Shown: positions 1 through 62,555 of the stretch, piece by piece
How the letters are laid out: every line of letters starts with the position of its first letter
Numbering within the stretch: position 1 is the first letter of the stretch
Assembly (NCBI GenBank): GCA_964036295.1
Contig: OZ038462.1
Location: 36,037,180-36,101,179, forward strand
Direction of reading: 5' to 3'
DNA length: 64,000 nucleotides
Origin: Plumapathes pennacea
Taxonomy: Eukaryota; Cnidaria; Anthozoa; Antipatharia; Myriopathidae
Notes under the pieces: generated by a model
Told to the model about the DNA's origin: nothing
The model's database searches: none
What the model saw: only the letters and a program-made list of their open reading frames with translations
Program-made: the position numbers and the translations under genes

Positions 1-17454
<17,454 letters not shown>

Positions 17455-34700: not shown

Positions 34701-35402
34701 ACCCGCTTATTCGATCAAAAAAGCCGCTATTTGCTGGTTCAATTCGTAAATCGGGTTTGTGCTTCATTTGAATAAAGATGGCCGGCACTGCATGACAGCT
34801 GCCGGTTTCTAACTAATTGTACTAACACGCTTCTCTGCAAACCAATTAAATGGTTTTCCGTGCATTGTTTATCGCTTATCACTTAGGCCCCATTAGCGGA
34901 TGCAAGTTGCGATAAAAAGTGCCTCGTACAAGGGCCTTAACAGTCTCGTTTGTTGTTCAGCTCTTGCTGTTTTTGCTACGAGGACAAACTGTTGCTCGAT
35001 CAGTGCAATGAACGTATATACGGTTATTAATTATTCTCGCGGGACAGCTCGTGACGTTTAGTACATTTATTGCAAACAGTGAAGCACTGTTCAAAATAAT
35101 GGCGTTAGCTGAAGCTAGACTCCTTTGATAAATAATGGTAATAGGACTGAGTGGAGTCCGATTCGGTCTGTAATCATACGAGTGATTACGAAATCGGACG
35201 ACCGCGCTTCGCGGGAGTCTGATTTCGTAATCACGAGTATGATTACAGACCGACATCGGACGACACGAAGTCCTCTTACCAATTAATCATAAATATTACA
35301 ATTTCTGAGAATGAAATGATCATATAGCTTCAGCGTCTTCTCCTGTACTATACATAAAAACAAAGCATCAAGAAGTACTTCATCGCCGATCTATTTTAAC
35401 AC
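31705..35402. other. Intergenic region between the Ig/TSP1 gene and the P-type transposon
   Basis: No gene recognised. Contents: a foldback MITE at 31822-32009 (related to 21873-22070); an imperfect palindrome at about 32533-32690 with arms around TTTGGAATAAATTA / TTAATTTATTCCAAA; and a near-perfect 105-bp palindrome at 35156-35260. The stretch 35340-35402 resembles part of the tandem array at about 19910-19955. Confidence 0.6.
35156..35260. repeat. 105-bp palindrome
   Basis: Arms TCCGATTCGGTCTGTAATCA and the complement of TGATTACAGACCGACATCGGA continue through GTGATTACGAAATC / GATTTCGTAATCAC around the centre GCGCTTCGCG. A compact foldback element or remnant of one, about 150 bp left of the transposon. 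Confidence 0.75.
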
Positions 35403-35410
35403 GCGCGTAC
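35403..35410. repeat. Target-site duplication GCGCGTAC, left
   Basis: Identical to 45136-45143 on the other side of the transposon. Eight bp is the length known for P elements. An uninterrupted GCGCGTAC in similar context lies at 19956-19963 in the tandem array. Confidence 0.8.
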
Positions 35411-36099
35411 CACAGGCTCCCCAATCTTACTGTATGAGTTGAAAAAAAAAAAGTTTTCAAATTAAAGAAATACTTCACCTATGTTGTTCCTTGTGTGCTT
35501 TTATTCCTTGTGTATCATTTCTGGGCAGTTTCAAACCGTTTTGAGCGATTTTCATCTGGTGCTGATTCAGTCTGTATATATAATGACAAGGCAGTACACA
35601 AGCGAAACGACCGTTGAACTTACGAAGTCAAAAAATCACCCTAATTCTGCTTAAGTCACCTCTATTCTCATCGATAGCAATCGCCGAAGGTTGGAATGAA
35701 TATCCTCTTCACTCGCACATCAAAAGCTCACTCTCTTGCCTTCAAAAAGCATGCATTTCTGCCGCCAAAGACCAACGTTTCACTATCTGTTGATCCGTTC
35801 ATGTAGCAACGAGGACACCTCGAGCTCAGTGACCAGGCCTGATTACAATAGCTCTAATCCGATTGGACGTTGGATGTCATGGCGACGCGCAAAATTTCCC
35901 CCACCAGGGTAATCTGGAATGGACACATCTGAATATCGCCGTCCCACCTATACTACCCACGGGTTACATTTGACAGCTTTGATCGCGTGATGCAAATGTC
36001 GCAATTTATTCGTAATCAGTCCAATTAGACTTTTTTTTTCTGCTTTGCGAAAGTGTTTGATAGTTCTTCTGCTTGATTTTTGTTACTATTGCTGTATTT
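35411..36099 (+). repeat. Left terminal inverted repeat of the P-type transposon
   Basis: Matches the complement of 44448-45135 base for base wherever compared, ending at the shared GCTGTATTT. The transposase start codon (36204) lies 105 bp inside the inner edge, so the TIR probably supplies the promoter. Confidence 0.92.
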
Positions 36100-36203
36100 A
36101 TTGAACTTCAGAGCTTTTGTAGCACACCACGCAACGCCGGTTCGTACGTGTTTTGTTTGCAAGTTTCCCGGGAAAGTTTGAATGTGTCCAGCAACCTGCT
36201 GAG

Positions 36204-39120
36204 ATGTTTTCAAAACTGAAAAGGACACAAGATGACAGTAGCAAAAATATAATTGTGAAGCCAAAAACAAACCCCTCTCATCAGTGGAAGGCGTGGTAAG
36301 CGAATTTATCGTCGGAAGTCGCAGTCGTCGATTTTAATATTTTTCTTATTTTAAAATTTTTTAATATTCTATATACTATACTCAGGTTTCTGGCAAACTA
36401 CGAATATGCAGAATCGTCGATTACGTTTCTCAGTGACATTGTTAGTCATTCTGAAGTGGAGAGAGAGAACATGGAACTTCTATTAAGTATCCATACTATT
36501 GGGAAAATCGTGAAGGATCGTTTCGAAGGAAAGGTTCGAAAAGTAAAGAGGGCTGGTCCAAAGATGAAGAGACAACTTGGCTATCTAAATCTTGGAAGAA
36601 AATCAAGAGTAACGCCATACCTACCAGACGGTACAACTGAGGCAATGAAAACCACCGAGTTGCCACACGGTTGGTATATCACACAAAACGACCCCAATCA
36701 AGTATGTATTGTCCGTCTTGAGGAGTGGGAGTTTGCTGGTAGTAGAGCCATATTAGAACTAACACTGACGCGAGCACCTGCATCTGGAGGCTGGAATGTT
36801 GCTTTAAAATCACATGGATCTCAGGTCAATATCGAGCAGGACCTCCAACAGCTGACTGGCAGAGGACAACTGCAGCTAGAAATGATCCTCGATTTTCTGG
36901 GAAATTCGAACACTTGCCGTGGAACTCCTGTTGAAGAAGTGATTGCTATGATCCCCCACTTCTCTGGGACTTACAAGCTTCTGAATGGGGAAGTAGACAG
37001 AGAAGAGCGCAGAGCCTTTGCTTCTGACTGCGATATCATCGTCAACTGGAAAGATCGTCCCTGTCCCAGATGTGCACACCTGAGGCTCATCAACGAGGCT
37101 CGGATGAAGAGGAAAAATACAAGCACATCAATACATCCTCACTGTAACAAGAGATATCTGTCAAAGGAGGAGGTTGGAAAGCAGCTTCAAGAGGAGAGAA
37201 GAGCAAAGAGAAACGCAGAGAGCAGGGAAGACTACTGGAGAGAAAAATTTTGTTCACAGGCCCTGGAGATGGACAAAGACGATAACATGGATTTGTGTGA
37301 TATTTTCAAGGGAGTCAAGGCTGAAAGTGTCCCTAATGATATGAAGTTCCTGTGGGACCAGCAGAGGAAGATCTTGGAAACCAAGAACAAGCATGGCTAC
37401 AGATGGCATCCAAAGTAAGCACCTTCACATTTAAAATGAATAATCATATCATATAATCATATCCCCGACCATACAGTGGGGCTCATGCAAAAATTAGGCA
37501 TGTCTTATGTTTTCAGTACTGCTGCAAGTGGGAAAGAAATCAATAATTTATTATTGGATATGTTGTCCCATTTCGGGTCATGTGATGCACTAATTGAAAA
37601 GGGTCAATTGTAGGGAAAATAACTGAACAGGAAAATATAGTTAAATCCTTTTTGTTTATATTTGATTAGAATTATTCGGCTGTCACTGGATTTGTATTGC
37701 AAGAATCCTCATGTCCTGGATCCTCTTCGACAATTTATCAAGCTTCCCAGCAACAAGACAATAAGGTACATATAATGTAGTCAGGAGGGAAAGCTTTTTA
37801 AAAAATGTTACTTCAAAACTTTTGCCAGCTCTCGACACCTCTCCTGATCACATCACTGTTGATTTATATTGCAGAACATCAAGCTATGTTTATAAGAAGT
37901 GGTTGGTGTTTTTTCACTGCAGGATGTATAAAAACAAAGTTGAACAGAATCCAGGATGGAGCAATGAAGTATTGAAGTGGTGCCTGAAGGAAGCAAAGCA
38001 AAAGGATCTCAAAGGTCAAGATTACTGGGGTGGTTTTGCCATTGATGAAATGAAAATACAGGTAATCAAATATGAGCTGTAATTTGATAAATAATAATTG
38101 ATGTGAAATATTAGGAAATTATGATCAGTACCGAGGTTCTTTATTATAAAAACTATATTGGATATAAGAAAGTTGGTTGAAAATCATATGTTCTTCCAGA
38201 TTTTGGTTAGGAAGAAAATGCATTAAGAATCAAACTTTTTGCTCCAGAGTCAACACATTTCAAACCATCATATTATTATGTAATCTTCTTGTTTTTAGGA
38301 GAATCTGGAGATGGAAATCAAGAATGGAAAGCACAAGCTGGTGGGCTATGTCAATCTTGGGGAAAGTCATGACATAATGAAAAACCTCTCAATTGGTAAT
38401 TTGATCACATGTTCATCTGATTGACAGCTGACAATTGATGCAATCCTGACTATGAAAAATCTCAGAACATTAATGATATTTACCTTTGTAGTAATTTTAA
38501 ACCACAGTATGCACAGAGCTATATACCCATGCATTCAAATTATTTACAGGAGCAAGTCACGAGGGACCACAACTGGCAACACAGGTTCTACAATTTGTAT
38601 TCTTGAGTGATGGTGGATTCCGCTTCCCCATTGCTCAGTTTCCATCTGGTACCTGCACACCCAGTGATTTGTACTTCATCTTCTGGGAAGGAGTGTTAAA
38701 AATGCTTGAAACTGGATTTGTGTATGTTCAAATCTACTTAACTGATATCATTTCCACTTGGTCCTGCTTTCATAGAGTGTAATTGTGTACTGAAATCATG
38801 TTAATCCCTTTTTCATTCACAGCATTTACTGGTGCATTACTGATGGTGCAGACGTCAACCGTCAGTTCATGAAGATCCATTTTAAAGGGAAAGACCCAGC
38901 AGACTGCAAATTTGTTTCCCGTAACAAATACACTGGTGGTCCAATGGTGTTCATAATGGATCCAAAGGTAAGGTAATTTGCGATTTTAGCTGCCCCCTAC
39001 AGCATTAACTGACTAGACCATCTAGTCGACCTGAATATAAAATGGCACTGATGAATATAAATCAATCAATCAGTCAATCAACCTTTATTTATACACAAAA
39101 TAAGTAACGTTAGTATCTCC

Positions 39121-39160
<40 letters not shown>

Positions 39161-40765
39161 TTTTGCAGCATAACATGAAGAAATTCAGAAATAACATTCA
39201 GAAAAGTAATGCAAGTGGAAAACCTCGTCTACTGAAGATTAATGGCCATGACATTGTATGGAAGCAGTTCAAAGATGCATACAGCTGGGACCAATTGAAT
39301 CACTCCCTGCCAATTCATGAAGGCCTTGCACCCCAGCACTTTGATCTGGACTCTGCATCTAGAATGCGGAACCATCTAGCAGAAGATGTGCTGGACAGAA
39401 AGATGCTGTTTCTTATGCAGGTAATGTTTGATAACATAATGTATGTGTAACCGGGCGGCGCGAGCGGTTTCGCCGTGAATAAATTAAATAGGGATGCAGC
39501 GAGTGGACTGACAAAACACATTAATGAAACATATAAAAACAGTACCAAACGGTGTATAAAACGGTATAAATGGTAGGTAAAACGATCTAAAATGGAAACG
39601 AGTAACAGTGCTAGGAAACAAAGCAAGTACAACAAAATACTATAAGAATATAATCTAACTTGATTATCCTAGCCATAAAAGTAGCACCTAGCATCAAGCT
39701 ATGTTTATAAGAAGTGGTGAGCAAATCAATTTGGATGAATCAATAGATATAAAATCTGTGCACTGAAATACTTGCTTCACCAAGGGCAAAGGTTAAGTGA
39801 AACACAACTAAATAACAACTGAGCTTGATACAACTTGAATTGGACCATGTGCTTATGCAGATTGAGAAATAGTATTGCTGAAGGCAATAACTACACTGAA
39901 CTGAAAAACGTGCACATTAACTGAGCTAGAAGCTGAACCTAAAGAATTCTATAATATTATATAAACCTAGCAGTAAGAGAGAAATATAAATATAAAAATA
40001 CAAAAAAATAAGCACTCTGACCCTGTCACATATGCTAATGAGGAAAACATGTAAACAAATATCCTCCTACAGCAATCAGATTCGGTGCATGAAAAGTCCA
40101 AACTCAGTCGAATGGTGAACTCTTGATCCCCGTAAAATATATTGGAAGTTTTTACCGAAATACACCCAAAAATATCCACACAACAAGTTTAAAATTAGAT
40201 ATAATACAACACTATAAATCGGCATAATTTATCCTTTCAGAAATACCAAGAATATCTGTTCCAAAATGGCTCAGCTGAGTCATCCCCAGTACTCGCTGGC
40301 ACAATTTCCCTACTACATCACACAAGTGAGATTGTGAGCCTATTCAACGACAAACTACACATCTCGTCAACATCTGATGACCGCCTCGCCAAGCTGAATG
40401 CATTTTTCACGTTCATGAAGACCTGGAGGGAGGAAACCCTGGAAGCAAACCAAAAATTTGTATCAGCAAAATTGTGGTTTGACATCCAGTCAATGTGCCT
40501 AGGATTCCAGTCCATGGTTGCAATCAAGCTGGGAAAATACCCAGGAGCTGTCCTAAAGCCTGCCATTGTCAACCAGGACTGCGTTGAAAATCATTTTTGC
40601 CAAGTGCGTGCCTGCAATGGGCAAAACAACAACCCAACTTACCGACAACAGGCCGCTGCTCAGAATTCCATTCGTTTTGGTCAGACAACAATAAGCAGGA
40701 AGAGTAACTCAGGACGATCCATAACAGCAGAGAAACTGTCTGCCTGCTCCCTCCCAAATATTTAA
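36204..40765 (+). CDS. P-element-type (THAP9-like) transposase
   Basis: Exons 36204-36295, 36386-37414, 37670-37765, 37923-38061, 38299-38395, 38550-38721, 38823-38967, 39169-39420, 40241-40765 sum to 2547 nt (848 aa). It catalyses excision and insertion of the surrounding element. The split RNase H fold of P-type transposases is visible: D447 in GFAIDEMKI, D549 in ITDGADVN, then MDPKHNMKKFRNN (587-599), which opens the GTP-binding-type insertion, and NQDCVENHF (E790) in the C-terminal RNase H half, followed by NGQNNNPT. The N-terminus has no THAP finger. Instead CPRC (257-260) with HPHC (281-284) could bind zinc, followed by a charged, possibly coiled-coil segment. An alternative acceptor at 37875 would add 16 in-frame residues. 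The start ATG is inferred from the phase-2 junction with exon 2. No disabling change seen. Confidence 0.88.
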
Positions 40766-40896
40766 AAGCGAAACAGTGTACAGAAAGCGAATATCGCTCG
40801 ATCCAACACGTTTTTGAACCCAGGTCCCACTCGGTGTAGGGACGCCTGGATGAGTTCGTGAACTAACAAAACACAATATAGTCTCACCTGAGCGAG

Positions 40897-43800
40897 TTAA
40901 TTCATCTGTAGGCGCATGACTATTCCTCTCCCTTCCCCATTTGCTGACAGATCTGCAATGCGGTAGGTTCTGTTATCTACAGATGTAGGCAGGGGTACAT
41001 GAAAGGATGCCAGGACAACTTGCTGTAGCTTTGAGGCAAGAACTCTCTTAGTCGCTCTTTTGTTGTGGGGGACCATGTATCCGTCACACAGGGCAAGTAG
41101 TTGAGGTCTCTGATACACACGGACAAGTGAATTGAGGCCATGTTTTGCGAGGAAAGCCTTCAAACGGCTGTGTGAAACATGCTTCATAGGGCTCCTGTCA
41201 TTCAGAATTTCCTGTTAATTAAATAATATTTTATCAAGCATTAATGATAATTATTCAATAGGTGCAACAAGAACCACAACCATAAAGCTATAGCACTATA
41301 TTGCAACAGAAACATGTACCTTGAAAGGTATACTTTCAGCCTTCTCTTGAGTCTTCTGCTTTCTTTGCAGGACACGCTTCCTGAGCTCTGCAGTCTTTCT
41401 GATGTTGTAGCTCCTGCGGAAGTCCCTCAGGTACTGTGACGCACCCATGTGCACATAGCGTTTCAGGACTTCTGCAAGGAGTGAGTCAATCATGAGCTGC
41501 AAAAAAAAAAAAAAAAAGAAAAAGAAAAAGTGGCATTTTAGTGTTTATAATAATTATATCTTGATATGCAATAAATTATTAGGTTTTCTTAATGTTAATT
41601 TGCTCCTCTGTTTTGTGTCTTCTACAAAACCACTGGCCCAATTAAAACCAAACTTCTGTGGTACTTTTTAGGGTTAAGCCCTGGCCAAACGGTACTCCCA
41701 ACTTGAGCCAAGTTGGCCGTCTATTTTGGCCAGGGCTTTATACCCAGAAATTGTCTGAAAGCCCAGAAAGTAGCCTCTGGCAGCCAGAGGCCAGTTACAA
41801 TAATTGTGAAGAAAGTATTGACAATTACTTGCATGGCCTTTACCTTCTCATCTGCTGTTCGAAGTACTCCACTTCCTGAGAAGCAATTAGTCTCCCACAA
41901 GTTCTTTAAGTGCACATTCTGCAGAAGTGACTTGTATGCCTTCTCCACCATCATTTCTTTCTCGTGTTTCAATTTGCTATCATTTAGCAGTTGCACCCTC
42001 AACCCCTCTAAATAAAGGAAGAACTCGTATGTCGCATCAGAAATGTGAACAAGTCCCCTCTCCCGAAACTGTCGGTTCTCTGTGACTTCAAGTGAATTGC
42101 TATGTGAAGTGCTTTCTTCCAACATAGCAAAAGGAACAATGAGATTTTCTTCAATCAGTTCACATTTCTTCATGTGTTGTTGGACTGATGTTAGCGTCTC
42201 AGCATTCCTGGTATACACATGTTGCCGAACAAACCTCCTTGAACATTCCAGCACTTTCTTCACTGCCCAACCTCCCACAAACCTAAGCTTTGCCTTTCCA
42301 ATATCTGACATATCTTCCACATTGAATGTGACTTGCTCTTGCTGCTGTTGGGTGATGATATGGTTGGACAGATTTTGAAGAAAACCAAAGTAAACTGACT
42401 CTGCCAACTGTACTGCTACAACATTTTGAACTGGGCTGACTGTAGTGGTGGTCTGGAACAATCCAGTAATGTAGGTGGCAAATTCCTGACTGTTGAGGAG
42501 ATCATCTAGCTTTTGTGTTCCTTCGGTGAAGTCTTGTCGCCCAATGTTTACCACGATTTCATCTGCAGAATTACCATGTAGATGATGCTGGACGATGTCG
42601 AATGAACGATGCCAGACAATCTTCATGAAGGTTTCTAGGCGTGGATTTATTTTCAAACCTTCAATGACTGCATTCTTCTCCACTGCAAACCCACTGGATG
42701 GTGCTTCGTTCTTCATGGACATGACTAAGTCATTGGCTGCCAACAAAAACTCGGATGGAGGAATGGATAGGATAGATTCATGCCTGGAAAGATGGTCATA
42801 CAGTTGCAGCAGGTCCATAGCACCCTGGACACCATCTTCTTCAAAGCAAGCTTGGATGGGCCCATCATACATTTGATGGGGAAATGAGAAGCCATCATCT
42901 CCACAATCACCTGCTTCAGAGGAGAATCGATCACTAGCAAAAAAGAGTGAACCATCTTCTATGACCCTTCTGCGGCAGCAGGATAGATCATCAGCATTGG
43001 TATGACAATGATGTGCAGCACAGAAGTCGATAACTTTCTGCTGTGGCTTGAGTAGCATGTTTGGGTTAAAATTCAAGACCTGCAAATTGCCAGAATCTTT
43101 CACCCGAGAAATTGCAACGTAAAAGAGATCAGGAACAAACTCTCTTGCACAATGCACCACAGCTGCTGGCAATGTCAGACCTTGTGTTTTGTGGCAGGTT
43201 ACACCATAAGCCAATATAATTGGGAACTGAGTGATACTCCCCACTGTTTTGCCAAGATTATTTCTTTTCAGCCAGGTCTCACGTCCAATGTTCACAGTTC
43301 CAACCCCTTCAAACGTAACCCTGAGTTTCTCTCCACTCATTCCACGAAACACCCCAATGCTGCCATTCTTCAGCTGGTCGGACCTGTTCCACACCAGCAT
43401 TACTCTACAATTAGCTTTCAGGTGCAAACTATGTTGTCCTGGCCACTTTAAACCTCTCGCCTCACCTTCATATACCGCATCAAAACACAGACGCTGACCA
43501 TGTAGCTTAGACAATCTCTCTTGATTGTACAGGAGTGCAGGCTCCCTCCTGAAGAAAATATGGGTAGCATTTGTAGCAGTTGCATGGGGGAGTTCCCGTG
43601 ATAGACTTGCAAGAAATGCAGCTGTCCCCTCTGAGCAGGTGCCAAGCCTGAGCTGATTCAAAGCTTGCATGAATTCATCGTTTGCTCCTATCTGCCGCAT
43701 GACTTTGGTTAGCTGAAATCTGTGTGGGAAAGCACTTCCAAAAAGCCTTGACAAAAACATAAACTTTCCCTCGTCAAAACCATTGGCGACTGGGCGTAAC

Positions 43801-44345
43801 TGTAGAAAGTCACCCACCAGGACTATTTGCTTTCCAGCAAAAAGCATGTTCTTTTCTTTGCCTTTGGCTAGCTTGTGGTGGATGGCATTTACTAGTTCCA
43901 ACATTCTTTGGCTCGACATGCTCACTTCGTCCCATATGATGACGTTCATAGCAGCTAGTTTTCTGCGCACCGTCGGGTTTTGAGTGGACCGTTCAATTAA
44001 TTCTTTCCAGGGCAAATCTGCTGTTTGCAGTCCATACTGCGAATGGACTGTCGCAGCTTCTCCTTTGGCATACACATGACAGGCAATCCCGCTTGCACAT
44101 ACCACTCCAACTCCCAAACCTTCTGCTCTGCAATAGCGTTGAATCGCTTTCACCACTTCGGACTTTCCTGTCCCAGCTTGCCCATTAATTACCGTGTTGT
44201 GGCCTTTTGTAACGAACGCTACTATTTCTGCTTGTTCTTCGTTGAGTTCCAACCTAAAAACGTTTGACAACCAAACGAGCTCTCATCGAGAATCAAAGTA
44301 AAAATGGACAGGAAATCACGCCAGGACAGAAGAAAGTACTTACAT
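40897..44345 (-). CDS. PIF1-like superfamily 1 DNA helicase, transposon-borne
   Basis: Exons 5' to 3': a 5' exon ending at 44344, then 41844-44253, 41320-41496 and 40897-41211. The start codon appears to be formed across the first junction (AT at 44345-44344 plus G at 44253), giving 967 aa. Helicase motifs: Walker A GQAGTGKS (about 25-32), Walker B IIWDEVS (DE 109-110), motif III GDFLQLRP (148-155), motif V CHKTQGLTLP (354-363) and motif VI YVAISRV (379-385). The helicase core covers about 400 residues. A C-terminal extension of about 560 residues, with a Cys/His cluster (CAAHHC, CCRRR) and a basic region near 825-865, matches nothing I recognise. PIF1 enzymes unwind DNA 5' to 3'. Being inside the TIRs and convergent with the transposase, it is probably an element function, perhaps in resolving or replicating transposition intermediates (inference). 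Confidence 0.88.
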
Positions 44346-44447
44346 GGCTGTGAGAAATGCATTCGTTTCGCCGTTGCGGTTGAATTACCACATTGGAATA
44401 TACCTCGGATATGTTCGTTCGTAGATTAATATTTTCTTTCGTAGACG

Positions 44448-45135
44448 AAATACAGCAATAGTAACAAAAATCAAGCAGAAGAACTATCAAACACTTTCGC
44501 AAAGCAGAAAAAAAAAGTCTAATTGGACTGATTACGAATAAATTGCGACATTTGCATCACGCGATCAAAGCTGTCAAATGTAACCCGTGGGTAGTATAGG
44601 TGGGACGGCGATATTCAGATGTGTCCATTCCAGATTACCCTGGTGGGGGAAATTTTGCGCGTCGCCATGACATCCAACGTCCAATCGGATTAGAGCTATT
44701 GTAATCAGGCCTGGTCACTGAGCTCGAGGTGTCCTCGTTGCTACATGAACGGATCAACAGATAGTGAAACGTTGGTCTTTGGCGGCAGAAATGCATGCTT
44801 TTTGAAGGCAAGAGAGTGAGCTTTTGATGTGCGAGTGAAGAGGATATTCATTCCAACCTTCGGCGATTGCTATCGATGAGAATAGAGGTGACTTAAGCAG
44901 AATTAGGGTGATTTTTTGACTTCGTAAGTTCAACGGTCGTTTCGCTTGTGTACTGCCTTGTCATTATATATACAGACTGAATCAGCACCAGATGAAAATC
45001 GCTCAAAACGGCTTGAAACTGCCCAGAAATGATACACAAGGAATAAAAGCACACAAGGAACAACATAGGTGAAGTATTTCTTTAATTTGAAAACTTTTTT
45101 TTTTTCAACTCATACAGTAAGATTGGGGAGCCTGT
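44448..45135 (-). repeat. Right terminal inverted repeat of the P-type transposon
   Basis: Inverted copy of 35411-36099. The helicase initiation site (44345) lies about 103 bp inside its inner edge, mirroring the transposase on the other side. Confidence 0.92.
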
Positions 45136-45143
45136 GCGCGTAC
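45136..45143. repeat. Target-site duplication GCGCGTAC, right
   Basis: Copy of 35403-35410. Confidence 0.8.
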
Positions 45144-46808: not shown

Positions 46809-49800
46809 AAAATCGGGTTCGCGCGCCATTTTGTTTCACCGGAACCAGTCGGGAGGTGAAAAGTATTTGCTGATCTAAGATTGAGGACTGACACAATCTG
46901 AACGCGCAATAGATGTATGGCGTCAAGTGAAAACGAGCGACATAAGTGTAAAAGCAAGCACAAGTGAGATACAGGGAAAAGTTAGGCCCATCGAACTTTA
47001 CATGAGTCGAAATCAATGCAAATGAGCAAAAAGTCATTGTTTGAGCAAATTTGCATTAAGTTCGATTCATGTGAAGTTCCGAACTTCCGTACTGCATTGT
47101 TTGACCTGGACCTAAGGCAATTCATACCTTGTGTTTGAATTTGCGTCGAGTCTGTTTTCATTTTGAAAAGACTTCTTTATGTGCCTACAACGCTTTGCGT
47201 TCGTGCTTGCGTTACTAGTAAAAACCAGGTTTATCTCTTCCACGCCGAGCTTGCCTTGGAAGCTAGCGATGGACAATGCATTCAGAATAACATCCTTTTA
47301 CAATTAAATGTTTTACGTTTCATTTTGTTGCAGCATCGAATTTAAAGATGGGAAGAAGACAAAGAAAGAGAAAGAGAAAGAGAAAAAAGAGAAGCCACCA
47401 GCAGTCAGCTTTGGTCAATTAGTAAGTCAAAATTTGGTGTCGCTATTAGTCACCTTTCAAGAATGCTGCGGTTTGCAAGCTTGTAATCATATTTACCCTT
47501 GTTCTAGTCTAACACAAGCTGCGTGATGAATACGAGTATTTCTAGGTCTGTGACTTGACAGTTCATAAATATTGAATTTGGCGTTAGCTTCACTGACCTG
47601 CTGCCTCCGTTGTTGTGGCAAATTTGCTGAAGGTTCGGCAGGATTTTCATTCTCAAATTTGCCCGTCTCAAGCCTTTCAGAATTTCTTGAATTGCGGTCG
47701 CCGTACCTTTTGCTTCCTCTTGGAGCCCAATTATATGGTTTCCATTCACATCGTGAATGCCTGAATAGTCTTCAACGTCATCCAAAATATTTTGTTAATC
47801 TCCGTATACTCTCAAGGACGTCCTCTGAAGTTACCCGACTCGTCTCTTTTAGTAATGCACAAACGAAATCGACTGAACTTAAATCTCCAAACAATCAAAA
47901 TGGCGGATAACACATTTTGCATCATGTAGTAGTCAATAAATGGACACTTTTGTACCCAGGCTTCTAGAATCCAAAGTCCAACTGAACCCTTGGGTGCATT
48001 AGGGAGAGGGTGAAAGGTCAAGGTCGTTGTGAGGTCGGAAGATGTGCCCACTCATACATCATGGCTCTCGCTTACTTAATTTTTTAAAACCCGTTTTTTT
48101 CACAACCGGCACACGGCACAAACGTAGTCCTGCGTTGTCCGGCTTGTTTTCACTTGGCGTTTACCCAGTGTGTTTCTCGCAGTTACCTAGCATTGACGAC
48201 ATATATCTGCTTTCCATTTCAGTTCCGCTATGCGACAACATTGGACGTTGTTTTCATGGTGGTTGGTACCCTGGGCGCTATCGGCCATGGCGTCGCCACT
48301 CCACTCCAGTTTGTCATCTTTGGTGACCTGATTGACGCGTTTGTTGACTTTGAGAAAGTATTGGCAGGCGGCGGGGGTGGCTTTGATCTCGAAGCGAAAA
48401 TGACCGAGTTCGCTCTGTATTACATCTACCTTGCTGTTGGGCTTATCGTGGTGGGTTATCTCCAGATGGGTCTGTGGGGTCATTCGGGAGAACGGCAGAC
48501 TCGTCAAATGAGGCAGGAATTCTTTCGAGCGATCCTTAAGCAAGACATTGGCTGGTTCGATACAAGTGACCCAGGGCAATTGAACAGTCGTCTCACAGAG
48601 TAAGTCGCCATCACTAAGTAGCCCATAGTATGATATAGAGTATAGAGTGTAATTAATTCTCAACGTGGCAACAGCCTCCCCCGCACAGAATCTATTTGAT
48701 TGACATTCGATCTCCCGTGAATTTCCGGGTAGCGGCAGACTGCTGGGAAAGGAATCATTGTACTTTGTATTATAAGATGGACGTACCTCCATATTGGTAG
48801 ACCTGCTGCAGGTGCGAGGTGCGAGGTCCAGTTCCTGTAATCAAGGCCTTGCACTTACTTTGAGTGATAAAACGTCCATTGTTTTTTATTTCATTCTATT
48901 TTCTTTCCTTTTTTTTTTTTTTTTTTTTTTTACTTTTTTGCGTTTCAACCTCTGTGACGGAAAATAGCTCCTTTGTTTTGCCTTGATTTTTTAGGGACCT
49001 TAAGAAGGTTAATGATGGCATTGGTCACAAGATTGCATCATTCATCCAGGCCATTACCATGTTCTTCGCGGGATTTGTGCTAGGATTTGTGTACGGATGG
49101 AAGCTGACTCTGGTTATCTTAGCGATCACTCCTTTGTTGGCTGTGTCCGGCGCAATTCTCGGAAAGGTAAGTCAAAATTTTGAGCAAAATCATTTTTTTC
49201 TGAATTGTGACACTCTACATGATCTGCTCACATCAAATTGAAGCAAAATGTCAGTCGGTTGTTTATTGCACGACATCATAGATAATATAAAGAGCTGTAA
49301 GTGAAAACTGTAAAATAATGAATAGAAATGTCATTTGGGAAATGATCATTTGAAAGCTTATGTTTTGGTTCCGAAGGGGTTCACATCGATTCTGTGGTTT
49401 TGTGTCCCACATTAATCCCTAAAAACAATCATGTAACGTTGGCCCAGTCTTTGGCATGAGCCGAGTCATTCGATTAGTAAATCCAACGATTAGGCTAAGT
49501 ATACTATTTTGATAGGTCCTTTCAGCCTACACGACAAAAGAACTTGACGCTTACGCAAAAGCAGGTAGTATAGCAGAAGAAGTTCTGTCCTCTGTTCGGA
49601 CGGTAGCTGCGTACAGTGGAGAGCAGAAGGAGTTTCAGAGGTAAATACATGAGGTTTCAGGCGGAACGATCTAGCCTTCTTTTTTTCTTTAATGTCCATT
49701 TCACTACCACCCCTGCATGTGTTTCTGGGCTATCCACTTTTAGTATATACCACACAAGTGAATAGTGCTTTTCGTGCGCTCTGATTGGCTCCTCAATCTC

Positions 49801-52800
49801 GGAATATCAAGTACTATTCACTTCCCGGCGGCTTCCGGTAAAACAAAATGGCGCGCGAACCCAATTTTTGCTCATTTTTGTCGGAAATAAAATAGCTATT
49901 TGGGAGTTGGCTATTAAACTTGTGTGGTATATACTAAAACATTTATTCGCCTCAGTGTCGGTGAATAGCGGTGGATATTTACCTCGCCGAAACAGCTCGG
50001 TGTCGGTGTTTCAAAGTGCTGTATGAGCCAGTGTTTTAATGTATGATATTCATCTTTTGCAACTTTAAAATGGGTTTATAGTATCAGTCCTTTATCTGCA
50101 TGGAAATTATTGCTGCTTAAACACCCCGTCTTTAAAGCACTCACAGCTGAACACTCAGACGTCTCATCTAAATCATTTTCAGATACTCGTCACATTTAGA
50201 AGAAGCGCGTGCTTATGGCACCAGAAAGGGTTTATCCACTGGACTTGGGATGGGCTTTTTCAACTTTATCGCCCTGGGAAGTTATTCCCTGGCGTTTTGG
50301 TGAGTTTAACTTGCTTCATTAAAGACTAGTATGAAATTCGTGACAGTATCATTCGCCGATCTTCACATTTCCTAACAAGGCTTCAAGCATAACTTTGGCA
50401 CACCATATGGATGATGTTTGATCGACATATCAGTGTTCTTTCTCTCAGCTATTAACGGTAGTTGTACTAACACTATAACAACGCACCAGGTATGGCTCGA
50501 AACTTATCATCGATGGAGAAATAACCCCGGGAAACTTGTTAATCGTAAGTAAATTCTCGTTGTTATTATCTAAATCATGTTTGCATCGTCATCTTTATCG
50601 TCATCGTAATGATCGTTATCACTATCGTCATCTTCGTTAATCCTCGTCATCCTCGTCATCCTCATCGTCATGGCCATAGTCATCATCGCCATCGTCATCA
50701 TCATCAACAACATCGTCGTCATCATCAACGTCATCGTCGTCATTATTAACGTCATCGTCGTCGCTGTCGTCATCTTGGGCGCGCGCTCGGAAACACGAGT
50801 GCTTGAATACGAGGCTTGGTAAGCCACCATTTTGATCTGGAAAAAGAAAAAACTAATAGCTTGCCAACCAGCCAAAGAAGCGTCAGGAATATCGTCTTCG
50901 CAGAGTATCACTGGTAATATTGTGTTGGCATATATGTGGAAGCCTACCAAGCCTCGTGTTCAAGCACTCGTACCCAGGCATTTCCAAGTGCGTGCCACCT
51001 TATGAGTAGCGTGTGAAGTAGTACACTGCGGTTGATCCGTTGTGGTCTTTTTTAGTATCCGAGTTATAGTCTTAGTGAACAAGGGAACATGGTGTTAAGT
51101 CTGGAAGATTTGACTATCATGTATTTTGTTTCGTTGGCTCGTCCTGCCAGGTGTTCTTCTCGGTTATGTTCGGTGCCATGTTCCTTGGCCAGGCCGGACC
51201 CTACTTCTCAGCCATTGCCACCGCACAGGGAGCTGCTTATGAGGTGTTTGCCGTCATTGACAGGGTAAGACCGTTAGGTACATCTCCAGTAATCTGCGAA
51301 TGTGTCGCTAATCTGTAATTTATGTAAATCTTTCTCCAGGTTCCTCCATTTGATAGCAGCTCCGAAAATGGGAAGAGGCCAGATTCAATGCAAGGCAATA
51401 TCGAGTTTAAAGACATTCATTTTTGTTACCCATCAAGGCCTGATGTTAATGTAAGTACTCTTTTATACTGCTAATTTGTCATGCGTTGAGAATGTTCGCG
51501 GCCATTGCTTTGTGCAACAGTTTCTGCGTATGCATGTCATACAATGGTACACATATATCAAGATCGGGAAACCTGTTTTTTCTTTTTTAAGTGTCGTAAA
51601 AGCACAGAGCAAAGTGCATGGTACATATTTTGCTCCTAGTCTACAATCATGGAAACAATAAAAATCTTTGCTGTCTTGCTCAGAAACACTTAATACTTTT
51701 TGTTTCAATCCTCCTTAGATTCTGAACGGTTTGAACTTGAATGTCGAAAGTGGACAAACAGTAGCGCTGGTCGGTGAAAGCGGATGTGGAAAGAGCACCC
51801 TTGTGAAACTTATTCAGAGATTTTATGATCCAAATGACGGGCTGGTGAGATATTTTATATTTTTATGACTTTTCAGGGTATTAAACGTAGCAGTCAGATC
51901 TGTCGCCACAGTCTCTGTCGACAGTTAAAAAGGCTTACGGTAACAGAGACTGTGCCTTTTAATAGTAAAACCATCATACTGTCAAACATAGATCCAGGTA
52001 CGTAAATTTCCCGAATGTTTTGTTGTAGGTGATCATCGATGGCCAAAGCATCCCCTCTCTTAATATAAAATGGTTGCGTGAGCACATCGGTGTCGTCAGC
52101 CAAGAGCCTGTGTTGTTCGCTACGACGATTGCGGAGAACATACGATATGGAAAAGATGGCATCACTCAACGGGAGATAGAGGACGCCTGTAGAATGGCGA
52201 ATGCGCACGACTTCGTTTCACGCCTACCTCAGGTGAGCATCGACCATTTGGCTACGTCCACGACACGACCCAACAACACTACAGTGAGCAGTGAAAACCC
52301 GACGATCCGACAAGCATCGATGAAGGACCCGACGACCCTACAACGATTACTATAGTTTGCTTTTATCACCCTAACGAAAGATCTCTTGTTATTTCTAGAA
52401 ATATGAGACATTAGTTGGTGAACGGGGCACCCAACTCAGCGGTGGTCAGAAACAGCGCATTGCTATCGCCCGTGCTTTGGTGAAAGATCCTAAGATTCTT
52501 TTGCTCGATGAAGCTACATCCGCTCTGGACACAGAGAGTGAATCTGTGGTGCAAGCTGCTCTGGATAAGGTAAATGAATGCTATAAGCTATAGTCGGTTT
52601 CTGACTATGCTAAGATACTTTGTGCTGGGTCATATATCGACCGTGCTCTGGAGCGTTTATTTGGTCTACTCTATATATTACAATGAATAGGATGGAATGG
52701 TATTGGAGAGGGGCTGAGACAGTGCCGTATCAAAAACGCTTGACCTTCAGTTTCGAGTGAGATCAGTCATCCTTCAAAAATCCACACAAAAACCTTTAAA

Positions 52801-55800
52801 CAACCGACGGCCATCCCCTGCAGCTGACTTGAAGAAGGAAGACACAACTTGCCATCCGTACAGAACTGCAGATTTTATCGAACTTGACTAAAAAGTCAAG
52901 CCCCTTCTCTCTTTACCTCAGGCTCGTCTCGGCCGCACAACGATCATCATCGCTCATCGCTTGTCGACTGTTAGAAATGCTGACGTCATTGCTGCCATCC
53001 AGGACGGAGTAGTGGTGGAGAAAGGGACTCACGCAGAACTCATGAAGACAGAAGGTGTTTATAGACAACTTGTTACCCTGCAGGTGAGATTTCACTCTGG
53101 CGTTGTAGTTTTCACATTTCCGAAATGACTGTTGCCTCTACTTGCTTAAACTGTTTCGTACTTACACTTACGCATATTGACCGGGAATCAACCCTAAACG
53201 GAGGTTTACCAAAAGTATGCGTATTGGCTATAGAACGCTATTTAGTCCATAAGCATTGACAGGAAGTTTTAACTTTTTAAATACAGACATTTGAAGAAGA
53301 CAAGACTGATGATACAGAAGAGGTTCCAAATAACGAGGAGAAAGGTATTTCCAGAAATGTGCTTGCTGAACAAAAGCCGGCTGTAAATCTAAATAAACAG
53401 CATACAGTAAATAGTTTCCAGGAATATCCAGACGCCCAGAAAGTCGCTGTGGGGTCGAGGCTCAATCTTTTCATTCTCATAAAAGTTAACCGTAATCGTC
53501 GCCGTAAAATACTACGGACTGACGAGACAACTTCGAGATAACATCAAATAAATATTAATTTGCAATGATATCGTATTGACAGGAATATCTTGTTTTCAGA
53601 ATCCGAGGCTGCCGTGAAGTTTATAAGGAGTATGTCAAATATGTCCAGTATGTCAAGTGGAAGTGAAAACGACGGCAATGCATTTGAAAGGAAACTGAGC
53701 CTCCGGGCATCACAGAGACTGTCAGCGGGAAAGCGAAGACCAAAGTCAGCCCTGGAGAAACCGGTGAGACAATGCATCCAATCATGAAGTACTCTTCTAA
53801 CATCTGTCATCACTTATTAGATTTCTTAATACATTTTCACCAATGTGCAGCTGTGATGGCCGAGTGGTTAAGGCGTTGGACTTGAAATCCAATGGGGTCT
53901 CCCCGCGCAGGTTCGAACCCTGCTTGCAGCGATATATTTTTGTACTTTGTTTTTGTTATTGCGACTATTGAGACTGCAATATACGATTTCGTATACCGAA
54001 TGTAAGCTGAACGTTAAAAATGGGAGCAGGGCACAATGAAATTATTGTCAAATGTATCCTGTAAATCCCTGCAGAGTGACAGTGCGGAAGAGAAGTCTAA
54101 AGAAGAAGACATCAAACCAGCTCCTTTCGCACAAATCCTGAAGCTCAACTTAACAGAATGGCCTTACCTTATAGGAGGTTCGATTGGTGGAGTGATTTAT
54201 GGATTGTTGCCTTTGGCGTTTGCGGTCGTACTTTCGGAAATCTTAACGGTAAGCCGAAAGACACTCAAGGCTTTGTTTCAATTTCTCAATACATCATGAA
54301 CATGCAATGATGGCCGTTATGCAAAGACTGACTAAATTCTTCATATCACTGTGTACTTACATCAACTCTGCAAATACCCAACTCAAACGATACATACTTT
54401 TACTACTACTCCCACAATCTTCATCAAACTGCAACTATGGCTATAACTAAATGTTTCATTTTGATAAATAAGAGTTTTAGTGCCTTTCAAGAGGGGAAAA
54501 TTGTACCCATCAAAATTAGTCTTAACAGATACAATTTCTAAGTCTATCCCTCTCAATAAACAAACAAAAACATACTTACTAGCTAAACTTGACCAACTCA
54601 GTAGATTCGACTACGCGGTTAATTTCTCTTCCAGATTTTCACCAAAACCGACGCAGATGAAATTCAAAAAGAGGCAATATTCTGGTCCCTGATGTTTCTT
54701 GTTATGGGTGCAGTAACATTTATTGGAAATCTGCTACAGGTATGCTGTGGTTAAACGTAGAATTTAAGTCAATTATGCTAAACGCTGTTAAAATAGTCTT
54801 GGTTGACGCTTCGGGCTTTAATCCTTTGTCAGAACAATATTGTAATCATGGCTTAGAAAGGTTAAGACGAACAGATCCCTGACGTAAGGATTTTCCAGGT
54901 CAAGGGTCAGGCAGCAGTTCATAGGAAGGGAACTAAATCAATTCATTAGGCTTTATGCGAATCAGTCACCTTGGATTCCCAAAAATGGACGAGCATCAAT
55001 AATTGAGGAGGAATTTGAAGTTTGATATATGAGCACTGTTAAATTTGATTGCATTTCAGATTTAATAAAGGATATAGCCATACCGCAACTTTCTTCCAAT
55101 CCATACAACTGTTTCTGAAACATGAAACAACCAAACTTGTCATTTAATAATTTATACAGGTGCATGAAAGCTCTTTAATTTATAAGGGCTCTTTAATTCA
55201 AGACAAAATCTATAGATATACTGGTAACTATTATTTACTGACAAAAAAGTTTAAAATCATACTTATCGAACTGTCTTTTTTCAGGATTACATGTTTGGCG
55301 TTTCAGGCGAAGCCTTGACAGTAAGGCTGAGAAGAATGGCGTTTCAAGCAATGCTACGACAGGTAAGGTGCTCGAGTCGAGTTATCGGGCTAGCGGTAGT
55401 CATCACAAATTGAGACACGCATTTTGTGTCAAATGACGACATCTTCGGACCGCGCAGTACTCTGGGTTCAGTTTTCAAGACACAAAATGGCGGATTGTCG
55501 CGATCAGTAACCTCGCAGGAAGAGGGGACATGTGCAAGGATAAATTTTCTAGTAACAATTACGTGTCATTCCAGGTTTGCAGAAAGTTGTGTTACTAGAG
55601 CAACAGATAACGTACCAAATATCGAACCATTTACGTATAAAATAAGTACGAGGTTCACAAGCCGAACCACTAATAAATAGATTTGACCCTAACCTCGAGT
55701 GCGTTGCATTTGTCGACAGGAGATGGGCTTCTTTGATGATCCAAAGCATTCCACGGGAATACTGACAACGTCTCTGTCTACACACGCGTCTGATGTCAAA

Positions 55801-58800
55801 GGGGTGAATGTTCCAACCAAAATTACTTTTTGAGAAATCGTTGTCATTTTTGTGTTTCCTTGCTGCTGTATTTTTGCTCTGACGTATCTTTGATGCATTT
55901 TATATTTGTTTGCAAGGCTACTGGAATTCGTCTCGGTACCATAGCAACCGGTCTCAGCACAGCCATAGCTTCCCTGATCTACGCCTTCGTCCACAGCTGG
56001 AAATTAACGCTTCTGTGCATAGCTTTTATGCCTTTTACTATCCTTGGGAGCGCAATCCAAATGAAAAGCATGACCGAAGGAAGCAGCAAGGACGACGATC
56101 ACCTGGAATCCGGCAAGGTAAAATCTCAAACTCGAAAAATGTTGGGGGACATGGTAGTGAAATTTACAAATTTGCGTCTTAAACAGAGTGGTCAGGATTT
56201 CTTCCAAAATTAAAATATCATATACGTAGTAAGAGTAATATCTTTTCTTGGATCCAGGTGGCAGTGGAAACCATAGAAAACATCAGAACAGTAGTATCGT
56301 TGGGCAGAGAGCAAACATTTTACGAAAAGTATTGCGCAGCTTTGTCAAGGCCCCACAGGTAAGGTTACTTAATTATTTTTATAAGAGAATGAAAAATGCG
56401 TACACTAAAAAAACTTGGACTAGAAACTAGCGTGTGCTCTGGACGATTGTTTGTGAGTAATGTTGGGTAATGTTTTGAGCTTGCAAAAGCTGATTTAGGA
56501 AATTGGTGCATCAGTGTACAAGTTCCATAATCTGCGAGTTGTTGTCAAATCATATCTTGTGCACAAGGGATGTTACTAAAACGAGGAATAGAGAATGGGG
56601 AATGAGATCAAAGAAACAGAAAGAGATAAATTTCGTAGGATTAAGTTTAGGGTTAGGTTTATGGTTAGACATCAAACAACTAATTCTAACAAACCTAACC
56701 CTGACACTACGCTGCTTAGCTCTGTCGGCTTCTTTGATCTCATTCCCCATTCCCAGTCGTTTTAATAACATCCGTGCACGAGTGTTGAGTGTTTCAAAAT
56801 ATGTATGCGTTCAAATGTTCGGATAAAATATTAGGCAGCTTTGAAAATACAACGTTTGCGCAGAGTTTGCCGCATGGAATCCAGTGTCTGTATTTTCAAG
56901 GCATGCGTTCCAGTGTTTAGTTAGTGATTTAAGGACAATGCAAGCACCGAACGACAGAAAAGAATCAATCAACCAATAGTTGTATAAAACAAAACAAGTA
57001 ATAAATTAGTTAACGAATAACTAATTAACTAATTAACCAATCAATCATTTGAGCCGTTTTCGGATGACTGTCGAAAGGGATAGTGTGATTGCTTTAGCTT
57101 TGCGCTTGCTACGCTTTCCGATTGGCCCAACAACTTTAGAAGCATTCTTGGCCAGTCAACAGCAAAAAACCTGGTTGCGAAATTCTCACGCCTTCAAAGT
57201 AAAACCAAATGCGGATTACTTTGGGTTCTGATTGTTTTGAAAGAGTTTCTTACAGCCTATGTGATTGGCGGTGTACAGCACTTGCTTTGTTTTTGCTTTT
57301 CAACAGTCATCAGAACTGAAACACAGCTAGCTTTGTTACACTCACCAACTTTGTTGTTACAGCAAAGCAGTGAGGAGGGTGCATCTGTTCGGTTTGTCCT
57401 TTGGCTGGGCAGAAGCAACGTTTTTCTTTCTCAATGCGGCGGCGTTTCGTTTGGGAGGATATCTTGTGGTAGAGCGTGAACTCAAGATGGATGACGTGCT
57501 AAAGTAAGACTAATTTTCACACTCATTAAAAGTGCATGGGGTTCTCTCAAACACTTATTTTTTCAGGGCCTCGAAAACAAGTGGCAATCCTCGATTCGTT
57601 TGCGAAAAAGATTGATTTTGAGCGAAGGCTGCTCTTTTCTATCATTGATTGAGATATATTATGTCTTTTTGTTTTGTGAAAAAATGCAAAGCCTTAGTTC
57701 TGTTTTACATTTAAACAAAAGCATTGGTTGGAAGAGCCTATATCATTCCAGTTATTAAACTTTGTTTTGTTTACACAGGGTTGTGCTGGCCGTTGCAATT
57801 GGTGCTATGGTACTGGGACAAGTAAGTGCTTTCTCGCCTGACTACGTCAAAGCCAAGGTAGCGGCTGCACGTATGTTTAAACTCTTCGACCGAGAATCGG
57901 CTATCAACAGTTCCTCAGAAGAAGGCTCGAGACCAGTAAGTGCAACAATGACTTCTCTACCTTACCAAGTATGAAGGGATTTAAAGTTTCGCATGACTTT
58001 GAATGCATATGCCAAATGAAAGAAATTTCTCCTGAGCCGAGCGGTGGAACATTTGGAACATTTCTGCTATTTTATAAATTTCCACTGGTTTGCCGTGGTG
58101 TGGACTCTTATTTACCACGATTTACGTCATCACATGGTCAAAATGTTGTGGACTCACGAGGCGCTTCGCCGAGTGAGTCCGCAACTAATTTTGACCATGC
58201 GATGACGTAAATCGTGGTAAATAAGAGTCCACACCACGGCAAACCAGTGAAAATTTGTTTTTTACCACAACATTTAGAAATATACAGGAAACTTTCCTTG
58301 TATTTCGCTGCAAAACGTGACATGCTGGCGTCAGCTGGCGTCAGCATCGTTGTCTGGACTCTTATTTACCACGCTAAATCGACCAATCAGAGAGCGAGAA
58401 ACTAGTGTGTTGTGGTAAAAACCTCTATTGCTATGGCAGATTTGCTAGAAGTTCGTTATTATCATTCTCAAGTCCGCCCGCCTCAAAACACTCACAACTT
58501 TCACAATTACCTTCTGCTTCCAAATATTCGTCTTCTACATCTCTGGTCAATGAGTATTCGAGACCGAAACAGGGTAGTTCATCTCCATATTTACTCCGTA
58601 GTTTCTCAAGGACAGCAAAAAAGACTGAACTAACAAAATGGTGGTCAAACATGTTCAAATATTTATATTGGTAGAAGATACGTCATGTAGCACTTTATAA
58701 ATTGACAACTTGCCCCCAGGCTTCCTGGTTTTATTATAATTGTATGCGATACACGAGGATGTAGTGGGTACCCCAGCCTCTGGAAGAAGGCTAAAAGGGA

Positions 58801-61154: not shown

Positions 61155-62555
61155 ATTTGGTCTTGCGTGTAATCGGGCCAACCAGGACAAGCTCCAACCT
61201 GGTAACGTGGTCGGACAAGCTCCGTTCAAATTTTGGCATTCTCGATCACAGCATATTGTTGGACTTTTATTTAAAAAAAAAAAAAGAAAATAGAATATTC
61301 ATTATACTTTCTGCAGTGTGTGCAGCACTATTCCAAAAACTGCTTCCAGTTTTGGATATTAAGCGGACCACGGTGTGTTTGTGTGCATTTTATATCTCCT
61401 GTGTGTTTCAGCGATCAACAATCTCACTAAAATCGGACATGAAAGTCGCGTTTTAGTGGTTTGTATCCTCCACATGATGAATTTTTAGGCTGCGTCTACA
61501 CTAATGCGTTTTCAAAGGCTTCCGTTTTCGAAAGTCTCCACTTTGGGAACCGCTTTCGAAAACCTCCGTTTTCGGGTCATCGTTTTAGTGTTGACGGAAT
61601 AAGCCAAATGCAAAAAAATGTTTTCGTTTTCAAAAGAAAACAGATTAGTGTGGACGTAGCCTTAGCGTATCACTCCAAGTGATTAACGTCATTTTTTTTA
61701 GTCTCTCACCAGAAATATATCATACGGCGAGGTTGTCTCACTACATCAATTACACACTTTCTTGTTAGTAGAACTCGTATGTTCTAGTAGAACTAGTATG
61801 TATCTAGTATGTCGAGCACGAGTGTGATGGTAATCCCCTAGCTGTTACTGCGCTAAACTACTTCTGAATCTGACATCTCATATTTGTCTAGTTACTTGAG
61901 GAGTGAAAGTTTAATTTGCTTTATCTCACAGTTAACGTTCGTAATATACTGTTTAACTTTCAATTGAAACTTTTGTAATGAAGGCGTTGTACACTTTCAA
62001 TACGAGATCTGGTACGAAAACTTTCTTCTGAAAATTAGTTTTCATTTTCATGCAAATCAAGCTAATTTTCATAAGAAAGTGAAAATTTCGCACTAGGCCT
62101 CTGTTTCAAACAGAGACAACAGACATCTCGAAAATGATGTTCTCGTAGTTCCTGTTCTGTACCTCAACAAGTTCCCATGCACGGACATGCAAGGGCTCAT
62201 TAATTCACATATTTTTTATTCAAGCTGTGTAAATGTTGTTTGATCCTAACAATGTAGTGATTAAAAATGAAAAAATGTTTAGATATTAGACTTATATGCA
62301 CTTTTAACAGCATTTGATTGGATGCTTTATGAATATATGATTTTCAATTAGGTATACTTTAGGATCAGTTTGACTTACACATTTCGTTTGTTGGCCGATG
62401 TGATAGGAGACACCAAACTTCAATTTATTGTTGTGTGTTCCCGCAAGATCATTTCAACAACAACAAAAAGGCGGAGTAAAACAGTCTAGGTTTCTGGCTT
62501 GTTGACCAAGTAAGGAAACGAAACAACTGGAGCAAGATCAAGGTAACAAAAAAAA
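61155..62555. other. Intergenic region between gene B and the GPCR
   Basis: Contains the MITE at 61488-61661 and otherwise AT-rich sequence without recognisable genes. No unambiguous AATAAA signal was found directly after gene B. Confidence 0.5.
61488..61661. repeat. MITE, GGCTGCGTCTACACTAATG family (174 bp) with TTA target duplication
   Basis: Left end GGCTGCGTCTACACTAATGC; right complement GGCTACGTCCACACTAATCTG. TTA on both sides (61485-61487 and 61662-61664). The interior is palindromic CCGTTTTCGAAA motifs. The 3-bp TTA suits PIF/Harbinger-type non-autonomous elements. Confidence 0.8.

Follow-up and report, generated by a model that had tools for sequence, protein, structure and literature searches.

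Can a P superfamily transposon carry its own helicase? P elements are the textbook one-gene cut-and-paste transposon, in which the gap left by excision is repaired by the host. The question is raised by a 9.7-kb P-type element at positions 35411-45136 of a 64-kb stretch of Plumapathes pennacea DNA (contig OZ038462.1; "the window" is this whole stretch). The element holds two genes between its terminal inverted repeats (TIRs): one for a P-type transposase and, on the opposite strand, one for a PIF1-like helicase. We are highly confident that a two-gene branch of the P superfamily exists, and only a little less so that the window's element belongs to this old branch as a complete and recent insertion, equipped with a dedicated PIF1-like helicase. 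That the helicase aids transposition or copy-back in some way is probable. The features of the element are as follows.

35404..35410, no strand: left target-site duplication (TSD) CGCGTAC, 7 bp
35411..36099, + strand: left TIR, 689 bp, starting CACAGGCTCC
36204..40765, + strand: P-type transposase gene, nine exons, 848 amino acids (predicted gene model; Pfam; motif alignment)
36204-36295, 36386-37414, 37670-37765, 37923-38061, 38299-38395, 38550-38721, 38823-38967, 39169-39420, 40241-40765, + strand: transposase exons
39440..40033, no strand: nested repeat in transposase intron 8, with many genomic copies
40897..44345, - strand: PIF1-like helicase gene, four exons, 967 amino acids (predicted gene model; Pfam)
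44345-44344 (split start codon), 44253-41844, 41496-41320, 41211-40897, - strand: helicase exons
44448..45136, - strand: right TIR, 689 bp
45137..45143, no strand: right TSD CGCGTAC, 7 bp

Are the ends those of a P superfamily element? The two TIRs differ by a single mismatch over 689 nt, at 35535, and the termini are perfect (CACAGG...CCTGTG). An inverted repeat of 689 bp that differs at one position and is flanked by a duplication far exceeds what chance would produce, and the TIR length of about 689 bp in the original prediction stands. The 8-bp duplication given there has to be corrected to 7 bp, because the final G of the right TIR had been counted into it. The shorter length is also the rule in the window's TIR family (family 1): among 12 elements with both ends within one fetched locus and the outer 22 bases matched at no more than four substitutions, 11, including the window's, have a 7-bp TSD and one (L030) has an 8-bp TSD. 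TIRs with a 7- or 8-bp TSD, as expected of the P superfamily, are found both here and in a second family described below; the TTAA duplication of Kolobok is not seen, the 7-bp duplications being variable in sequence. By raw count, six of 13 TSDs (12 from family 1, one from family 2) start with GT (GTCGGCC, GTCGGCA, GTCACAC, GTGAAAA, GTTGGAC, and GTCTATA), resembling the GTATTAC that the available part of one account gives for Galileo (PMC4168063). Outside the element, just beyond its left end, a palindrome lies at 35163-35253; its arms are 44 nt long (89%) and its loop 3 nt.

The left gene has the catalytic domain of a P-type transposase. Its exons, like those of the helicase, were predicted from GT-AG sites and reading frame, and the 848-amino-acid product has no internal stop and matches PF21787 and PF21789 (TNP-like RNase H N and C). 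Motif and alignment place the catalytic residues at D447, D549, and E790, with D588xxH591 (D588PKH591) preceding the E; such a C/DxxH motif is common to the P superfamily, according to the part of the source available (PMC9587614). The complete transposase with its D, D, and E positions, first read from the letters alone, is thus borne out as a predicted nine-exon gene. The 241 residues that separate D549 from E790 could accommodate an insertion domain, a GTP-binding insertion and a need for GTP being P superfamily traits, and a homolog, P0119, has a fold like that of the Drosophila P transposase (Z of 27.9 to P versus 8 to 11.5 to RAG and Transib). The THAP DNA-binding domain, which P, Galileo, and THAP9 have at the N terminus, was looked for as well: PF05485 is absent from the 848-amino-acid protein at E-values up to 1, and no C2CH pattern occurs in the transposase or in the 5'-region open frames of either family's transposase. 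Because this domain was not detected, we file the element under P by its catalytic domain; judged from the predicted protein, it represents a P superfamily branch separate from the group that bears THAP. Relatives of the transposase comprise six protein matches, five of them from Oculina, Porites, and Exaiptasia, and none of 32 candidates in viral contigs was confirmed by alignment. The repeat nested in intron 8 is outside the two-gene design; intron 3 contains an exact copy of a 27-bp piece of this repeat, at 37877-37903.

The right gene, convergent to the transposase, encodes a predicted helicase of 967 amino acids without internal stop, in agreement with the complete PIF1-like helicase of about 967 residues that had been proposed on the other strand within the same TIRs. 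It matches PF05970 (PIF1, 5e-28) and retains the motifs GQAGTGKS, WDEVS, GDFLQL, QGLTL, and YVAISR, which are almost invariant among 46 aligned relatives. A structure model of exon 2 (mean predicted local distance difference test score, 83.5) matches Candida Pif1 (7otj) at 3e-30, so both the core with intact motifs and the fold are those of a PIF1 (SF1B) helicase. The two genes occupy 96% of the element interior, with gaps of 104 bp and 102 bp between TIR and gene and 131 bp from stop to stop, which leaves scant space for captured flanking DNA. Starting some 100 bp inside one of the two near-identical TIRs, each gene is read inward, and the two may therefore share a TIR-borne promoter.

Is this pair of genes found together elsewhere? 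It is in a second family (family 2, L211/L213), represented by a 9,027-bp element at C4:9066921-9075947 with 759-bp TIRs that are 99.87% identical, the 7-bp TSD GTCTATA, and termini CACAGGCGGCCC; its ends read CACAGGC, like those of family 1. Its transposase matches window residues 32-846 at 36-83% by exon, and its helicase, again convergent, matches residues 4-965 at 47-61%. Reading frames are uninterrupted in the main exon of the helicase and in exons 2 and 9 of the transposase. The helicase matches break where the window's exons do (about amino acids 805 and 863), and what lies upstream is compatible with the same split start codon. A damaged copy of family 2, L212 on C3, is about 96% identical in long aligned pieces and also has both genes. 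Between families 1 and 2, the helicase main exon is 48% identical in amino acids, with identities of 0.585, 0.709, and 0.358 at the three codon positions (790 codons) and stops in neither family; nonsynonymous divergence (dN) is 0.46 and synonymous divergence (dS) 2.17 by LWL85, the latter saturated, and NG86 gives no dS. Transposase exon 9 is 65% identical in amino acids (codon positions 0.716, 0.787, and 0.420; 169 codons). At the level of the aligned codons, these comparisons show that the protein sequence of both genes is under constraint across diverged families.

DNA searches of the 290-Mb genome (G000) extended the comparison to nine loci that contain transposase sequence from exon 3 on: C1 (the window), C8:10266352, C4:9069275, C3:7691739, C11:9575780, C2:28791914, C2:26613329, C3:10518248, and C3:10601475. 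Eight were examined (all except C2:26613329), and six of these (C1, C8, C4, C3:7.69 Mb, C11, and C2:28.79 Mb) carry a helicase of the family where it was expected, on the strand opposite the transposase; at C11 and C2:28.79 Mb, this place was computed from the transposase ahead of reading. TIRs were seen in full at C1 and C4 and in part at C3:7.69 Mb. At C11, helicase residues 98-701 are found in four pieces, stop-free within pieces, at 33-61%. The pair at C8:10266352-10278746 is old and damaged: transposase residues 376-674 and helicase residues 98-803 lie in the window's order and orientation, the helicase stretch is stopped in every frame, and the intervening 5 kb is unread; a TIR was looked for there and not found. 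At C2:28.79 Mb (L215), only a C-terminal piece is seen, matching P0024 residues 567-648 (38%, E 1e-14). Altogether, the further copies that the original prediction called for, having the two genes arranged alike, were recovered in family 2, L212, C8, C11, and C2:28.79 Mb, and its inference of a two-gene P lineage is supported by the same convergent pair in family 2 and in six of eight examined loci.

Several observations, however, weigh against this reading. At L215, a search with the window's own helicase gives no match at E 0.01, nor was the N-terminal part of the helicase found. C3:10601475 is a deletion derivative whose helicase remnant is just 58 bp, and at C3:10518248, a transposase fragment, a DNA search did not find the helicase. 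A helicase fragment of 94% identity at C2:23261272 has no transposase in its 1.5-kb flanks, and short or divergent helicase matches without known transposase occur at C2:15843352, C11:7151812, C6:12356443, C6:12346226, C1:11948142, C11:9489130, and C1:17656821. The surroundings of such helicase-only matches are mostly unread. All of the linkage evidence, moreover, comes from one genome. Two outcomes had been named in advance as telling against one unit. The first, transposase-complete copies that lack the helicase and show a clean empty site, is not seen among the helicase-free copies read, which are deletion derivatives or TIR-only, but the C3:10518248 fragment lacks a detected helicase. As to the second, a helicase that exists mainly on its own, the gene is not a Helitron gene, but there remain the several short matches with unread surroundings.

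Most copies of family 1 are far from complete. The left TIR has at least 72 genomic matches (40 of 99 candidates scored), and the complete interior is found in the window only. Among the first 14 TIR surroundings, L031 (C2:2274943-2277580) has the 5' part of the transposase, at 97.5% DNA identity in its main piece, and no helicase; the others have TIR sequence alone, except for an unrelated Helitron-type helicase in L042. Five loci (L006, L007, L009, L010, and L011) are compact fold-backs of about 900 bp, 423 and 477 bp of two TIRs back to back. These are 97-99% identical to the window TIR, and the non-autonomous family has therefore been recently mobile. Four deletion derivatives contain transposase sequence, L031 and the family 2 copies at C3:10601475, C4:14898861, and C6:13104061, and all four keep the transposase end. 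KP is a repressor in Drosophila, and by analogy the truncated transposase product of such derivatives might act as one too.

What, then, would the helicase do? Its likeliest role is in post-excision repair synthesis in particular, although we hold this specific role with somewhat less than even confidence. In the scheme we propose, the DDE transposase from the left gene would excise the element, join it to a new site, and make the 7-bp duplication, and the dedicated PIF1-like helicase from the right gene would travel with it. After excision, the helicase would unwind the template or move the D-loop, and repair synthesis would thereby copy the 9-kb element, whose long TIRs are prone to form hairpins, back into the donor gap. 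In yeast, D-loop migration during repair synthesis is driven by PIF1-type helicases, and help of this kind would be of greatest benefit to an element as large as 9 kb and with TIRs this long. The double-strand break that P-type excision leaves behind is mended by host pathways, which include a Bloom helicase homologue and Ku, as the available part of the source describes (PMC7776569). TIR-only and internally deleted copies, which are numerous, could represent failed copy-back, leftovers of an interrupted process, with a parallel in what is available on Galileo (PMC4168063). The deletion derivatives that keep the transposase end are consistent with a repair role, short of proof. As for the history of the pair, it is nearly an even question whether a PIF1-type helicase joined a THAP-less P transposase in a single ancient event before the hexacorals, or perhaps the anthozoans as a whole, diversified, with the two genes co-inherited since and the helicase obligate for copy-back; such a transposon would bring its own break-repair helicase in place of the host's.

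The helicase could instead act in the transposition reaction itself, by melting or remodeling the ends of the long TIRs to permit synapsis or cleavage, or by dismantling the strand-transfer complex after insertion for gap filling at the new site. The P-type in vitro reactions that have been studied are not known to have needed an added helicase, and we regard this role as unlikely, though still worth serious consideration: the long near-perfect TIRs of both families and the intact helicase motifs would suit it, and no feature here separates it from repair. It would also fit the unusually long, 17-nt staggered cuts of the P transposase given in the available text (PMC7776569). Less likely still is a regulator or host-interference factor, dispensable for movement, that might block, for example, silencing, replication-fork arrest, or host recombination. 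Accessory roles do vary, given the different accessory proteins that the part available to us reports for several Kolobok lineages (PMC9587614), but a positive sign of such a function is absent here, and the near-invariant motifs suggest that ATP-driven unwinding is what has been kept.

Could the helicase be a roleless passenger, a host PIF1 gene captured once by the window copy? Foreign DNA can sit between P-type ends, but we find this very improbable, since the arrangement recurs in diverged families, both proteins are constrained despite third-position saturation, and the helicase has a clade of its own. The protein search gave 117 matches at E 1e-3, among which P0001-P0077 are set apart by score (871 to 323 bits, the next being a Mytilus protein at 238). 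In the tree, 68 of these group with the window's helicase in a single clade (support 0.96), which lies apart from the remaining PIF1 proteins and has its own C-terminal part of 400 residues. All nine organism-named members of the 77 are anthozoan (Oculina, Orbicella, Exaiptasia, Paramuricea, and Actinostola); together with the transposase matches, they point to a probable hexacorallian host. The helicases of families 1, 2, and 3 (C11) take separate positions inside a 35-member clade (support 0.99). The C-terminal part has no relative among at least 78 viral-contig loci or the best 80 of 144 prokaryote-contig matches, which are PIF1-core matches of 23-34% identity, none reaching beyond query residue 549. 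A domain common to this part and the transposase was considered and rejected (hhalign probability 0.2). Recent host-gene capture is rejected on the strength of the same gene pair and constrained proteins in diverged families.

Least credible of all is a nested mobile element, a helicase from a Helitron or other element inserted into the P element: PIF1-type helicases are typical of Helitrons, and one of Helitron type lies near the TIR remnant in L042, but Pfam detects neither a Rep domain nor a Helitron family in the two proteins, cellular PIF1 is the nearest match to the core (E 6e-43 against PDB PIF1 chains versus 2e-9 against Helraiser), the clade branches apart from PF14214-bearing Helitron proteins, and position and orientation are unchanged in diverged families. 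A Helitron origin is thus rejected, on the lack of a detected Rep domain, the PIF1-like core, the separate branching, and the TIRs with TSD. The L042 gene (L042:6214-7998), a few kilobases from a degraded TIR copy, is unrelated to the element's helicase.

A P branch with a linked helicase through deep divergence makes the limits on copy-back testable, and the origin of internal deletions and TIR-only derivatives becomes addressable in the same system. The two components are suited to cell assays. In addition, genes annotated as PIF1-like in coral genomes may belong to transposons.

Beyond the element, dispersed inverted similarities of 71-96% between 1-16272 and 47365-60274 point to a large inverted duplication. 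Within the second of these regions, 48088-48603 encodes an ABC transporter membrane domain. An unbroken rhodopsin-type G protein-coupled receptor reading frame (7tm_1) occupies 62547-63548.

How does the element compare with known systems? Helitrons also encode a PIF1-class helicase, but fused to Rep, and they move by a rolling circle without TIRs or TSD; the element's helicase branches elsewhere. Searches of the open-text literature, which do not extend to subscription papers or Repbase Reports, turned up no helicase-carrying P element; the original prediction likewise knew of no described P family with a separate helicase gene. The principle is already known, since the available part of one source describes helicase-bearing DDE transposons in Kolobok (PMC9587614); a PIF1 helicase in a P-type element is what we did not find. 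KolobokH and Kolobok-1_CCri are alike in being DDE transposons with their own helicase, encoded on the complementary strand in Kolobok-1_CCri, but they belong to another superfamily, with TTAA duplications, a RecQ rather than a PIF1 helicase, and hosts among fungi and a red alga (PMC9587614). The Drosophila P element and the zebrafish P-like elements (THAP9) differ in their short TIRs (31 and 13 bp), 8-bp TSD, and use of host repair factors, with no helicase gene in the text available (PMC7776569). Galileo of Drosophila shares the P-type transposase, the long fold-back-like TIRs (765/757 bp in a near-complete D. willistoni copy), a TSD of 7 bp or sometimes 8 bp, and many TIR-only and deleted copies; its transposase has a THAP domain and a helicase gene is unmentioned in the part available (PMC4168063), whereas here THAP is undetected and a helicase is present. 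In layout, the element resembles the RAG-like (RAGL) transposons, which likewise have a convergent gene pair, there composed of RAG1-like and RAG2-like genes, as the accessible portion of the source describes (PMC7204232).

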